A stretch of 64,000 nucleotides of DNA from an uncultured Paracoccaceae bacterium (lineage in GTDB: Bacteria; Pseudomonadota; Alphaproteobacteria; Rhodobacterales; Rhodobacteraceae): contig CANLEQ010000003.1 in the NCBI GenBank assembly GCA_947489705.1, forward strand, positions 124,001-188,000, in the 5' to 3' direction. Made by a program: the position numbers and the translations under genes. This document shows positions 48,710-51,840 of the stretch, piece after piece; position 1 is the stretch's first letter; every line of letters starts with the position of its first letter. The notes beneath the pieces were generated by a model that saw only the letters and a program-made list of their open reading frames with translations, was not told where the DNA came from and ran no database searches.

Positions 48710-49615
48710 TCAGACCCCCAGGCAGTGACGCATGACCGCCTTCTGTGCGTGTAGCCGGTTCTCTGCCTCGTCGAAGATCACGGAATGCGGGCCGTCCATC
48801 ACCTCCGACGTGGCCTCGTCGTCGCGATGCGCGGGCAGGCAATGCATGAAGAGCGCGTCGTCCTTGGCCCGTTTCATCAGCGCCTCGTTGACCTGATAGC
48901 CGCGCAGCTGGTTATGGCGCCGCTCGCGGGCGGATTGCGGATCGTGCATGCTGACCCAGGTGTCGGTCACGACCAGATCTGCGCCCTCCACCGCCTTTGC
49001 AGGATCGCGTTCGGTCCGGTAGAGCCCTTCGAGCGCGCGATCTGGGTCGAGCGGTTCGGGCCCCGTGAAGGTCAGGTCGAACTCGAATTGCCGCGCGGCG
49101 TGGGCGAAGCTCGCAAAGACGTTGTTGCCGTCGCCCGACCAGACCACCTTGCGCCCCGCGATCGGTCCGCGATGTTCCTCGAACGTCATGATGTCGGCCA
49201 TGATCTGGCAGGGATGGCTGCGATTGGTGAGCCCGTTGATCACCGGCACCGTCGCGTGCTCGGCCATCTCCAGCAGGGTCGCCTCCTCGAAGGTCCGGAT
49301 CATGATCAGATCCACGTAACGCGACATGACGCGGGCCGTGTCGGCGATGGTCTCGCCATGGCCGAGCTGCATGTCAGCCCCCGACAGGACTAGCGTCTGG
49401 CCGCCCATCTGGCGCACGCCCACGTCGAAGCTGACGCGGGTCCGGGTCGAGGGTTTCTCGAAGATGAGCGCGACCATGCGCCCCGCGAGCGGCTGCTCGT
49501 CGTCCGGGGCACCCTTGGGCCGGTCGTTTCTGGCCGTCTTCATCGCGCGGGCGCCGTCGATGATCGACCGCAGCGCGGCCCTGTCGGTTTTGTGGATGTC
49601 GAGGAAATGGTTCAT
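48710..49615 (-). CDS. argF: Ornithine carbamoyltransferase
   Basis: 301 residues. The carbamoyl-phosphate motif is [14 protein letters not shown], the ornithine loop is [12 protein letters not shown], and the second-site block is [17 protein letters not shown]. It makes citrulline in arginine synthesis. It follows argD with a 68-nt gap on the same strand, so argD-argF probably form an operon controlled by the leader region upstream of argD. Confidence 0.97.
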
Positions 49616-49683
49616 GAAACGACCCTTGGAAATGTGCGGCGGAAGGCGGGCCGCCGGGAAATCTATACCCCAGGCCCGCGCGG

Positions 49684-50850
49684 TCAGGCCAGAGCGGTGG
49701 CGGCGGCGTCGAGCCGGCGCACGGCCTCGGCCAGATCGTCGTCCCCGATGGTCAGAGGCGGCAGCAGGCGCACGACGTTGTCGCCCGCCGGAACCGTCAG
49801 CAGATGCTCGGAATAGCCCGCCTTCACGAAATCCGCGGCCGGAACGCGGCATTTGAGCCCCAGCATCAGGCCCGATCCGCGCACGTGGTCGAAGATGTCG
49901 GGATGGCTCGCCACCAGCCCCTCCAGCGCCTGGCGCAGATCCGCGGCCCTGCGACGCACGGCGGGCAGGAAATCGGGCGCCGTCATGATCTCCATCACGC
50001 GAACCCCCACGGCACAGGCCAGCGGATTGCCGCCATAGGTCGAACCGTGGCTGCCCGCGCCCATCCCCGAGGCCGCATTTTCGGTGGCAAGCACCGCGCC
50101 CAGCGGAAAGCCGCCGCCGATCCCCTTGGCGACCATCATGATGTCGGGCGCGATTCCCGCCCATTCATGCGCGAAGAGCTTTCCCGTCCGGCCCATGCCG
50201 CATTGAACCTCGTCGAGGATCATCAGGATGCCGTGCCGGTCGCAAAGCTCGCGCAGGCCCTTGAGGCAGGCGTCCGGCATCGGCCTTATGCCGCCCTCGC
50301 CCTGCACCGGCTCCACGATCACGGCGGCCACATCGTCGTCGAGCGCCGCCTCGAGCGCGTCGTGATCGCCCCAGCGCAGATGGCTGAACCCAGGCAGAAG
50401 GGGGCCGAAGCCCCTGGTCATCTTCTCCGACCCCGCCGCCGCGATCCCCGCCGAGGAGCGGCCGTGGAAGCTGCCCTCGAAGGCCACGATGCGGCTGCGG
50501 CCCTCGCCCTTCTCGAACCAGTACTTGCGCGCCATCTTGACCGCCAGTTCGCAGGCCTCGGTGCCGGAATTGGTGAAGAACGCGGTATCGGCGAAGGTGT
50601 GCTCGACCAGCAGATCGGCCAGGCGCTGCTGCTGCGGCACCTGGTAGAGGTTCGAGACGTGCCAGAGCTTGCCGGCCTGATCGGTCAGCGCGGCGACGAG
50701 CTCGGGATGGGCATGGCCCAGCGCGTTGACCGCGATGCCGGCGCCGAAATCGAGATAGCGGGTGCCGTCCTCGGCGCTGAGCCAGGCGCCCTCGCCATGG
50801 CTGAACGCGATCGGCGCGCGGTTGTAGGTCGGCAGGATAGAGGGGATCAT
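49684..50850 (-). CDS. argD: Acetylornithine aminotransferase
   Basis: 388 residues. Class III PLP transaminase with PLP Lys in [16 protein letters not shown], the cofactor Asp in [12 protein letters not shown] and the binding block [16 protein letters not shown]. It converts N-acetylglutamate semialdehyde to N-acetylornithine and probably also serves in lysine synthesis. It is the first structural gene of argDF, preceded by a 107-nt leader after a mini-ORF ending in Arg codons. Confidence 0.96.
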
Positions 50851-50954
50851 CGGATCGCTCCTTCACGGGAATGCGCGAAGCCCGAGCAATGCCAAACGGC
50901 ACGGGGGCTGTCAATTTTGGGGAGGAATGGCGCGCAGGGACGCACCGCCTGAGA
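50851..50954 (-). promoter_or_regulatory. argD leader: argD leader region with alternative hairpins
   Basis: Between the mini-ORF stop and the argD ATG lie sequences able to form competing structures. GACGC within the Arg codons (50965-50961) can pair with GCGTC (50943-50939), and a second hairpin AGCCC/GGGCT (50909-50905 with 50883-50879) encloses TGCC/GGCA. There is no T tract, so control by occlusion of the argD ribosome-binding site (gaaggag) or by Rho is more plausible than an intrinsic terminator. A TTGACA at 50914-50909 could instead mark a promoter inside this region. Confidence 0.4.
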
Positions 50955-50996
50955 TCAGCGGCGTCGTCGGAGGAAGGAATGTGTCGCGATGTCCAT
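50955..50996 (-). CDS. Putative arginine attenuation leader peptide (Arg4)
   Basis: Peptide MDIATHSFLRRRR: ATG at 50996, TGA at 50955-50957. The ribosome-binding site taggaggg directly precedes it with ideal spacing. The last four sense codons are all Arg (cga cga cgc cgc) and end 107 nt before argD, the first gene of argD-argF. Ribosome-mediated attenuators place tandem codons for the regulated amino acid just before a switchable hairpin, as here. Its expression is inferred from codons, position and ribosome-binding site, not proven. Confidence 0.6.
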   Translation of the reverse strand: MDIATHSFLRRRR

Positions 50997-51036
50997 GCGC
51001 CCTCCTAGCCCCCTGCCGCCCCTGCGTAAAGACCTC

Positions 51037-51840
51037 TCAAGATTTCAGGCGATAGCCGCGCTGGAACCACACCAGCGCCAGCGCCGAGAGCGCCACGGTC
51101 ACACCGCCGCAGACCGCAAGGCCCAGCCACGGCGACGCGTCCGACACCCCGAGCGTGCCATAGCGCGCCCCGTCGATCAGGTAGAAGATCGGGTCCGCAT
51201 GCGCGGCCATGGTCAGCCCCTCGGGCAATGCCTCGATCGAATAGAACGTGCCCGACAGGAAGCTCAGCGGCGTGATGATGAAGTTTGTGATCGCCGACAT
51301 CTGGTCGAACTTGTTGGCCACGATCCCCGCGAGGATGCCGAGCGCGCCCATCATCAGGCCGCCCAGCACCAGGAACGTGAGGAACCACAGCGGATGCGCG
51401 AGGCCGGTGCCGACCACCACGACCATCACCGCCCCGATGACCAGCCCGACCAGCGCACCGCGCGCGAGCCCCCCCGCGAGATAGCCCAGCAAAAGCTCCA
51501 TCGGCGAGAGCGGCGGCATCAGCGTGTCGACGATGTTGCCCTGCACCTTGGAGGCAAGGATCGACGACGAGGTATTGGCGAAGGCGTTCTGGATCACGGT
51601 CATCATCAGAAGGCCGGGTGCGATGAACATGACATAGCTCACGCCCATGACGTCGCCCCGCGCGGGCCCGATGGCGATGGCGAAGACCGCCAGCAAAAGC
51701 CCCGCATTGATCAGCGGCCCCATGATGGTCTGGCTCCAGATCGACATGAAGCGGCGGCATTCGCGCTGCGCCAGCGTCGAGAGCCCGGTGACGTTCCAGC
51801 GTCCGAAGCGGCGTACGCCCATCTGCTCGGTTTGTGACAT
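51037..51840 (-). CDS. ABC-2 type transporter permease
   Basis: 267 residues with six hydrophobic segments (QTIMGPLINAGLLLAVFAIAIG, YVMFIAPGLLMMTVIQNAFAN, and others). The ABC-2 signature is visible at FANTSSSILASKVQGNIVDTLMPPLSPMELL and at TNFIITPLSFLSGTFYSIEALP. No ATPase gene is adjacent, so its partner must be encoded elsewhere. It may export a lipid or polysaccharide. It ends 40 nt before the Arg leader on the same strand, so read-through into argDF is possible. Confidence 0.88.
   Translation of the reverse strand: MSQTEQMGVRRFGRWNVTGLSTLAQRECRRFMSIWSQTIMGPLINAGLLLAVFAIAIGPARGDVMGVSYVMFIAPGLLMMTVIQNAFANTSSSILASKVQGNIVDTLMPPLSPMELLLGYLAGGLARGALVGLVIGAVMVVVVGTGLAHPLWFLTFLVLGGLMMGALGILAGIVANKFDQMSAITNFIITPLSFLSGTFYSIEALPEGLTMAAHADPIFYLIDGARYGTLGVSDASPWLGLAVCGGVTVALSALALVWFQRGYRLKS

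Follow-up and report, generated by a model that had tools for sequence, protein, structure and literature searches.

A conserved mini-ORF with terminal arginine codons and a candidate arginine-responsive leader of argD-argF in Rhodobacterales

Upstream of argD and argF, an uncultured Paracoccaceae bacterium carries a short open reading frame that ends in four arginine codons, and this mini-ORF is real and conserved among its relatives. We consider it fairly probable that the leader controls argDF in response to arginine by way of the translating ribosome, which would probably detect a shortage of arginine on it. If this is true, many Rhodobacterales gauge their arginine supply via a mini-ORF whose length is mostly 11-18 codons. 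According to the textbooks, arginine biosynthesis is under the control of ArgR. With the PF01316 profile, ArgR was found in none of 60 relatives, the genome studied here included, and in none of 196 genomes of the order (the two sets overlap); the same profile gave matches in 9 of 14 control genomes. The original prediction had interpreted the region as an arginine attenuator. The conserved ORF with its arginine codons, the constrained codon choice and the result for ArgR speak for this interpretation, but no terminator-like site was detected between positions 50600 and 51300 of the window, i. e. the whole stretch of 64,000 nucleotides that was analysed, and a switch between terminator and antiterminator of the trp type is therefore unsupported. 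The leader would work like an attenuator, but it is set apart from the classical family since the terminator that defines this family was not found.

The mini-ORF and its conservation

The elements of the locus are listed below in the order of transcription.

51025..51030, minus strand: -35-like element (TTTACG) of the upstream promoter P1, from the sequence and the T at ATG-35 in the family
51002..51007, minus strand: -10-like element of P1 (TAGGAG), from the T at -12 and the A at -11 in the family
50955..50996, minus strand: mini-ORF MDIATHSFLRRRR and stop codon, probably leaderless, conserved in relatives
50985..50996, minus strand: segment A, nt 1-12 of the mini-ORF, which in the family covary with a region after the stop codon (permutation tests)
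50958..50969, minus strand: segment 1, arginine codon tract CGA CGA CGC CGC, from the sequence and codon counts
50939..50948, minus strand: segment 2, partner of the arginine tract or part of the post-stop hairpin as predicted by folding
50929..50946, minus strand: post-stop hairpin (2:3), predicted with a ribosome footprint on the first arginine codon
50927..50934, minus strand: segment 3, predicted by folding to pair with segment A; it shares nucleotides with the right arm of the post-stop hairpin
50915..50930, minus strand: C-rich, G-poor tail 5' of TTGAC, by its composition a possible Rho loading region
50909..50914, minus strand: TTGACA of the probable second promoter P2; TTGAC is conserved before argD
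50858..50863, minus strand: Shine-Dalgarno sequence of argD (AAGGAG), from the sequence; Shine-Dalgarno-like 4-mers precede argD in 74 of 87 leaders
49684..50850, minus strand: argD, acetylornithine transaminase (NCBIfam NF002325 and TIGR00707 above cut-off)
48710..49636, minus strand: argF, ornithine carbamoyltransferase (NCBIfam TIGR00658 above cut-off)

The mini-ORF reads from an ATG at 50996-50994 to a TGA at 50957-50955, and its stop codon is separated from the argD ATG (50850) by 104 nt; the predicted distance of 107 nt includes the stop codon. Upstream of it lies a gene for an ABC-type permease (51037-51840), whose best match in NCBIfam falls just short of the cut-off. According to NCBIfam, the genes 3' of the leader are argD and argF and not an ornithine decarboxylase gene, which places the leader outside the speFL/orf34 family. 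Judged from the upstream frame, the order permease-argD is also present in L099-L103, L105 and L107 from other alphaproteobacterial families, and a different gene is located upstream of argD in the congeners L091 and L096, where the mini-ORF is absent.

For our comparison, the 80 best loci were taken from at least 582 argD matches in named genomes; further sets were 14 genomes of the genus of the window and 25 genomes from other genera of its family. The main set of 94 leaders, mostly from Rhodobacterales, consists of the window, L002, the 80 loci and 12 congeners (L085 was omitted); it counts the congener L091, although a comparison of 250 nt showed its argD leader to be identical to that of Palleronia rufa (L005). 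In 57 of the 94 leaders there is an ATG mini-ORF of 7-24 codons that contains four adjacent arginine codons; dinucleotide shuffling, repeated 20 times, gave a mean of 0.2 (maximum 1), and the antisense strand gave 1 of 94. This bears out the original prediction of a mini-ORF with four terminal arginine codons before argD-argF. Three adjacent codons were found in 69 leaders (shuffles 1.6, antisense 1). Two were found in 89, and since 9.8 shuffled and 20 antisense leaders have them as well, two codons alone are weak evidence. The arginine tract is specific to argD leaders if compared to those of other arginine genes: mini-ORFs with three arginine codons precede argC in 0 of 13, argG in 1 of 14 and carA in 0 of 14 cases (1 of 41 in all; the argC set lacks G005, one of the 14 genomes, in which no match exceeded the cut-off).

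Within the genus, 11 of the 14 genomes carry the mini-ORF, in L084 and L092 with only two adjacent arginine codons. It is missing in L091, L094 and L096, which have kept argD; loss of the arginine codons in relatives, which the original prediction had named as counting against it, is thus seen in part. Among the 25 other genera, 17 have the mini-ORF, 12 of them with three or more arginine codons and five (L186, L190, L193, L195 and L207) with two; L190 was assigned manually, and L199 was not counted in spite of an RR peptide. It is absent in the remaining eight (L199, L200, L201, L203, L204, L205, L206 and L208). Of 22 genomes searched from the other families of the class, 18 gave a match, and no comparable element was seen at 12 argD loci from these; arginine-ended ORFs do occur there, as the GTG ORF VSAWRRR of L107 and the ATG ORF MRCSAWRR of L102. 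A strict leader pattern matched none of 36 genomes. Rfam gave two sub-threshold matches for positions 50500-51500 of the window, neither of them within the leader, and nothing at the gathering threshold for 14 related loci.

The choice of arginine codons is strongly constrained. We counted the codons in the longest arginine runs of 89 mini-ORFs, i. e. of all leaders kept from 95 after L005, L065, L079, L091, L094 and L096 had been left out. The 306 codons, which include the near-duplicates L085/L002, L087/L086 and L064/L038, comprise 149 CGA (49%), 145 CGC and 12 CGT; CGG, AGA and AGG do not occur among them. In contrast, CGG and AGR make up 26.5% and CGA 7.2% of the arginine codons in 80 argD genes, so that CGA is about sevenfold enriched in the runs; binomial values for this bias overstate its significance because the sequences are related. 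CGA, CGC and CGT interchange freely, and CGG is never reached. A single tRNA (ICG) decodes CGU, CGC and CGA, and it decodes CGA slowly. The bias, with no CGG or AGR and with CGA increased, provides a natural test case for the question of which codons best sense starvation. Only two adjacent arginine codons are present in 19 of the 89 mini-ORFs; shortened forms, often with CGA CGA, are found in L027, L039, L053, L186 and L195, and MTLLTDIRRDF and MTKGHPIRRA are examples of shortened peptides. The N-terminal parts diverge widely and, by eye, have little in common beyond arginine. A CATAT motif, mostly 14-15 nt 5' of the arginine tract, was seen in 23 of 84 leaders (5.0 expected; e. g. L012, L022, L042, L060 and L078) and in only 2 of 17 held-out leaders. 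It falls in frames 0, 1 and 2 in 12, 10 and 1 leaders, respectively, and its presence in two main frames suggests a nucleotide rather than a peptide motif; some mini-ORFs have a His-Ile dipeptide 5' of the tract.

Start of the leader RNA and pairing of its first nucleotides

The family has promoter elements at a fixed distance from the start codon. In 87 leaders aligned on the ATG (start choices of the 89 mini-ORFs, two duplicates dropped), T is present at -35 in 80%, T at -12 in 53%, A at -11 in 67% and C at -1 in 86%, the figures for -12 and -11 leaning upward because the start choice favoured ATGs preceded by TA. A profile of 79 leaders with starts chosen without this preference (L005, L065 and L079 not included; the window entered with a wrong ORF, and six leaders with too early a start) agrees with this, the values at the same positions being 81, 53, 65 and 78%. 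An SD-like 4-mer before the mini-ORF is absent in 82 of the 87 leaders, the exceptions being the window, L061, L068, L084 and L095. Among the 17 held-out leaders, for which nested starts were picked by hand in L198 and L207, SD-like sites are absent throughout, and TA occupies the place of the -10 element in 15. As 82 of 87 leaders have no SD-like site and the -35 and -10 elements fit an RNA start at the AUG, the family looks leaderless, and the mini-ORF is probably leaderless in most of it. A leaderless start has been reported for trpL of Sinorhizobium meliloti in the available parts of the respective papers (PMC7298713, PMC10117765). The textbook ribosome-binding site of the original prediction is therefore not typical of the family: GGAGG is present in the window, but most leaders have promoter elements instead. 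In the window and in the congener L084, GGAGG overlaps or adjoins the -10 position; in the window, TAGGAG is located 1 nt closer to the ATG than in the family mode and overlaps the putative ribosome-binding site. GGAGG could be part of the -10 box, a ribosome-binding site, or both.

Two hairpins had been predicted for the leader, and both can be formed in the window: the tract (50968-50958) and 50948-50939 form 10 bp interrupted by a single bulge (-15.3 kcal/mol), and further downstream 50946-50940 can pair with 50935-50929 in the second hairpin. Hairpin z-scores and composition were calculated for 84 of the 89 leaders (post-stop stretch of at least 25 nt, non-repeated), helix permutation tests for 79 of these after a similarity filter, and a segment-pair scan for 78. 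Pairing of the tract with the 3' leader, although strong in both the window and L002, was rejected as a conserved element: its mean z is -0.10 (84 leaders), permutation gave z 1.0-1.2 for 45 post-stop nt and 2.1-2.6 for the first 20 (79 leaders), and a repeat of the test gave 0.2-1.3, the value of 2.4 for the first 12 post-stop nt falling to 1.6 with GC-matched partners. The post-stop hairpin is conserved modestly (mean z -0.47 in 84 leaders, permutation z 3.4 with GC-matched partners), and some leaders have none.

A different helix covaries across the family. We compared the length of the helix formed with the partner from the same species to that formed with permuted partners: nt 1-12 of the mini-ORF and the 45 nt after the stop codon form a mean contiguous helix of 5.08 pairs with cognate as opposed to 4.15 with permuted partners (z 9.1, 0 of 1000 permutations, n = 79). 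The signal persists with GC-matched permutation (z 7.8-8.1, 0 of 2000) and in the 17 held-out leaders (z 5.4, 0 of 2000; control segment z 1.1), and this pair is the strongest of 136 segment pairs in the scan (z 7.0, 78 leaders). Mini-ORF nt 13-30 gave no signal with the post-stop stretch (z 0.0-1.2, 79 leaders), nor did the 24 nt 5' of the AUG (z -0.4 to -0.8), the latter as expected if the RNA begins at the AUG. Examples of the helix are GATCAAACG with CGTTTGATC (L076, L078), GATTAAAC with GTTTAATC (L185), ATGACGCAA with TTGCGTCAT (L187) and GAACAAAAGC with GCTTTTGTTC (L011). At least six contiguous pairs are formed in 29 of 79 leaders (permuted 12%) and in 7 of 17 held-out leaders (14%), so that in many leaders the helix is short or interrupted. 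In the window, segment A (AUGG and CGCG) pairs with CGCGCCAU at 50934-50927 over 8 bp across a 4-nt bulge, which is weak by itself (-3.8 kcal/mol). When two subsets (25 and 24 leaders) were aligned with MAFFT, RNAalifold found next to nothing. Thus, of the alignment support that had been proposed, the mini-ORF with its arginine tract is conserved and the arms of the tract hairpin are not, a different helix showing the covariation. Pairing of the start codon in this helix may be a simple means of restricting the reading to one ribosome.

In the minimum-energy fold of the window, the argD Shine-Dalgarno sequence is paired with the mini-ORF; its sequestration is not supported across the family, with no clear signal in the segment-pair scan (z up to 1.8). 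One pair that is not expected to form, the 24 nt 5' of the mini-ORF with the first 16 nt of argD, reached z 3.5 (1 of 500, 78 leaders), and scan values of about 3.5 should be read with caution since this unexplained pair reaches them as well.

Ribosome position, termination and the second promoter

To model the ribosome, a footprint of 30 nt was masked. For the window, the start-region helix and the tract stem are predicted in the free leader, the post-stop hairpin with the ribosome on the first arginine codon, and the start-region helix with the ribosome at the stop codon; the probability of the post-stop hairpin is 0.0, 1.0 and 0.0, respectively. Across the family, the contrast is small: of 101 leaders, 79 are predicted to form the post-stop hairpin when free, 93 with a stalled ribosome and 77 with the ribosome at the stop codon. 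The mean pairing of nt 1-12 with the post-stop stretch in the family is 0.50 (free), 0.41 (stalled) and 0.35 (stop); permuted partners gave 0.30-0.32 for the free and 0.24-0.25 for the stalled state.

A lenient scan found terminator-like sites in 16 of 84 leaders with the mini-ORF (68 without) versus 11 of 20 argD leaders that lack it. A GC-rich hairpin followed by a T-run is located about 30-110 nt 5' of argD in L099, L101, L103, L105, L200, L205, L206 and L208; these alphaproteobacterial leaders lack both the arginine mini-ORF and an evident uORF, and they perhaps represent an older argD attenuator. Between the stop codon and TTGAC, C exceeds G in 83 of 84 leaders, and the C/G ratio is 1.87 (argC 1.08, argG 1.22 and carA 1.45 in control leaders). 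Because of this C-rich composition, we would prefer Rho over an intrinsic terminator as the output.

TTGAC lies 28-85 nt 5' of argD in 81 of 82 loci (the sites taken in L049, L074 and L082 may be non-homologous). It is present in all 17 held-out leaders, too, and of the 14 congeners 12 have it, among them all three without the mini-ORF; L088 and L095 have no exact TTGAC. At 4 of the 12 loci from other families it is part of a promoter-like sequence, TTGACA-N17-GATACT in L099, L100 and L101 and a variant with CATACT in L107. Given the arrangement in the first three, TTGAC is probably a second promoter, P2; its -10 region is poor in Rhodobacterales. A transcription start at this internal TTGACA had been named as an argument against the original prediction, and its conservation as a probable promoter lends this argument some weight. 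At 50880-50914 of the window and in relatives, TTGAC is followed 16 nt on by GGCAC..GGGC, which is conserved across Rhodobacterales. A hairpin in the TTGAC..GGGC stretch was rejected as an RNA structure, as there was no covariation and the paired fractions were about those expected by chance.

Proposed mechanism, alternatives and related systems

Taken together, we propose that RNA from P1 begins at or near the AUG of the mini-ORF and would, to judge from the sequences, be translated without a leader in most of the family (the window has an SD-like site). The first ribosome would translate the terminal CGA and CGC codons, which are read by one arginine tRNA, on the nascent RNA. If arginine is plentiful, it would reach the stop codon and leave; the start codon region would then pair with the post-stop stretch, as the observed covariation suggests, and thereby block re-initiation on the leader. 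Early termination before argD, most likely by Rho, would be made possible by the C-rich tail. If charged Arg-tRNA is scarce, the ribosome would stall on the tract, the post-stop hairpin would form, as folding predicts in the window and weakly across the family, and transcription from P1 would continue into argDF. P2, just 5' of argD, may provide basal expression. Several points stand against this reading: P2 is conserved and could alone drive argDF, some congeners and other genera lack the mini-ORF, part of the mini-ORFs have two adjacent arginine codons only, the window has its SD-like site, the tract stem is not conserved and the post-stop hairpin modestly so, the effect of ribosome position is weak across the family, and helix A is predicted in the stalled state, too. 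It is tempting to speculate that a leaderless arginine mini-ORF without intrinsic terminator, widespread in an order for which no ArgR was detected and with its start codon sealed by the covarying helix so that only the pioneer ribosome reads it, has replaced an older terminator-type argD leader of other alphaproteobacteria; we put this forward tentatively and lean slightly towards doubt.

The conservation of P2, also where the mini-ORF is missing, and its promoter-like form in other families would fit the idea that argDF is transcribed from P2 only and that the mini-ORF has a short transcript of its own, which would act in trans as RNA or peptide. There is a precedent: as far as reported in the available text, the trp attenuator RNA rnTrpL of S. 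meliloti, whose 5' end is the ATG of trpL, has its effect in trans (PMC7298713), as does the peptide peTrpL. We regard this as rather unlikely here, since arginine codons read by one isoacceptor directly 5' of arginine genes point to sensing in cis, the N-terminal peptides differ widely by eye, the -10 region of P2 is poor, L088 and L095 have the mini-ORF but no exact TTGAC, and the window has no terminator-like site that would define a short RNA. Classical attenuation as in trp and his, with stalling on the arginine codons preventing an intrinsic terminator 5' of argD, is distinctly unlikely: a leader with arginine codons before its cognate operon, the presence of hairpins and the terminator-like sites in a minority of leaders would agree with it, as would the U-run terminator following a Cys-codon uORF before cysS of Rhodobacterales, described in the accessible part of PMC8632094, but the window and most leaders have no such site, and stalling in the window favours the post-stop hairpin rather than preventing it.

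The covarying helix at the 5' end is also compatible with an action of the leader via RNA stability or refolding, in which this helix would protect or expose the RNA, somewhat like the case of Salmonella speF, whose arginine codons, according to the available text, govern RNase G-dependent decay (PMC6386406). This is very unlikely in our view, as leader segments gave no clear signal with the argD Shine-Dalgarno sequence or early argD, and the exceptional pair with z 3.5 involves the 24 nt 5' of the mini-ORF, which lie outside a leaderless transcript. Finally, a nascent peptide might sense arginine or ornithine, with arrest by the peptide instead of codon sensing. The fungal arginine attenuator peptide and SpeFL are such nascent-peptide sensing systems, and His-Ile precedes the tract in some leaders. 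Yet the peptides share little beyond arginine by eye, the CATAT behind His-Ile falls in two main frames, and codon choice is constrained, which makes an arrest peptide extremely improbable.

Control of argDF by a ribosome on the arginine codons, our preferred reading, can be compared to known systems. In the trp, his and leu attenuators of E. coli, cognate codons are located near the end of the leader ORF, and the position of the ribosome sets alternative folds; these leaders have an intrinsic U-run terminator and an SD-led ORF, whereas no such terminator was found in the window. By analogy, orf34-speF of Salmonella is closest in mechanism (PMC6386406): in the accessible part of this report, pausing at tandem arginine codons permits a hairpin 3' of the stop codon to form, and Rho acts in the leader. 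Both have a short ORF with tandem arginine codons and a post-stop hairpin on pausing, which is predicted here for the window, and arginine is a signal there and a proposed one here. In contrast, orf34 has 34 codons and a Shine-Dalgarno sequence and belongs to an ornithine decarboxylase gene of gammaproteobacteria, speF beginning at nt 516 of the mRNA; no start-codon helix like that of the argD leader is described in that part.

Closest in setting, again by analogy, are the leaderless trpL and the uORF of Rhodobacterales cysS. The available texts describe trpL/rnTrpL as an alphaproteobacterial mini-ORF of 14 codons with cognate codons before a biosynthetic gene (PMC7298713, PMC10117765); its RNA begins at the ATG, and P1 is placed for the same start here. 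It differs by its Trp codons and a transcription terminator. The uORFC-8-2 before cysS, in the available part of its report (PMC8632094), shares the occurrence in Rhodobacterales, the tandem cognate codons and, in the reading of its authors, ribosome-mediated attenuation; it differs by its Cys codons, the tRNA synthetase gene and a U-run terminator in all cases. An S. meliloti uORF upstream of a DUF1127 gene is likewise alphaproteobacterial, with a C-rich stretch and presumed Rho termination, ribosomes and pairing setting access to this stretch; the part of the report at hand proposes sensing of translation efficiency, with a Shine-Dalgarno sequence, and describes no role for an arginine tract (PMC12218461). 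Among the matches listed in our literature search, an arginine leader of the argD type is apparently unreported. The name uORFC-8-2 suggests a uORFC-8-1 in the same genome, as judged from the accessible part of that report (PMC8632094), and this uORFC-8-1 might be the argD mini-ORF element.
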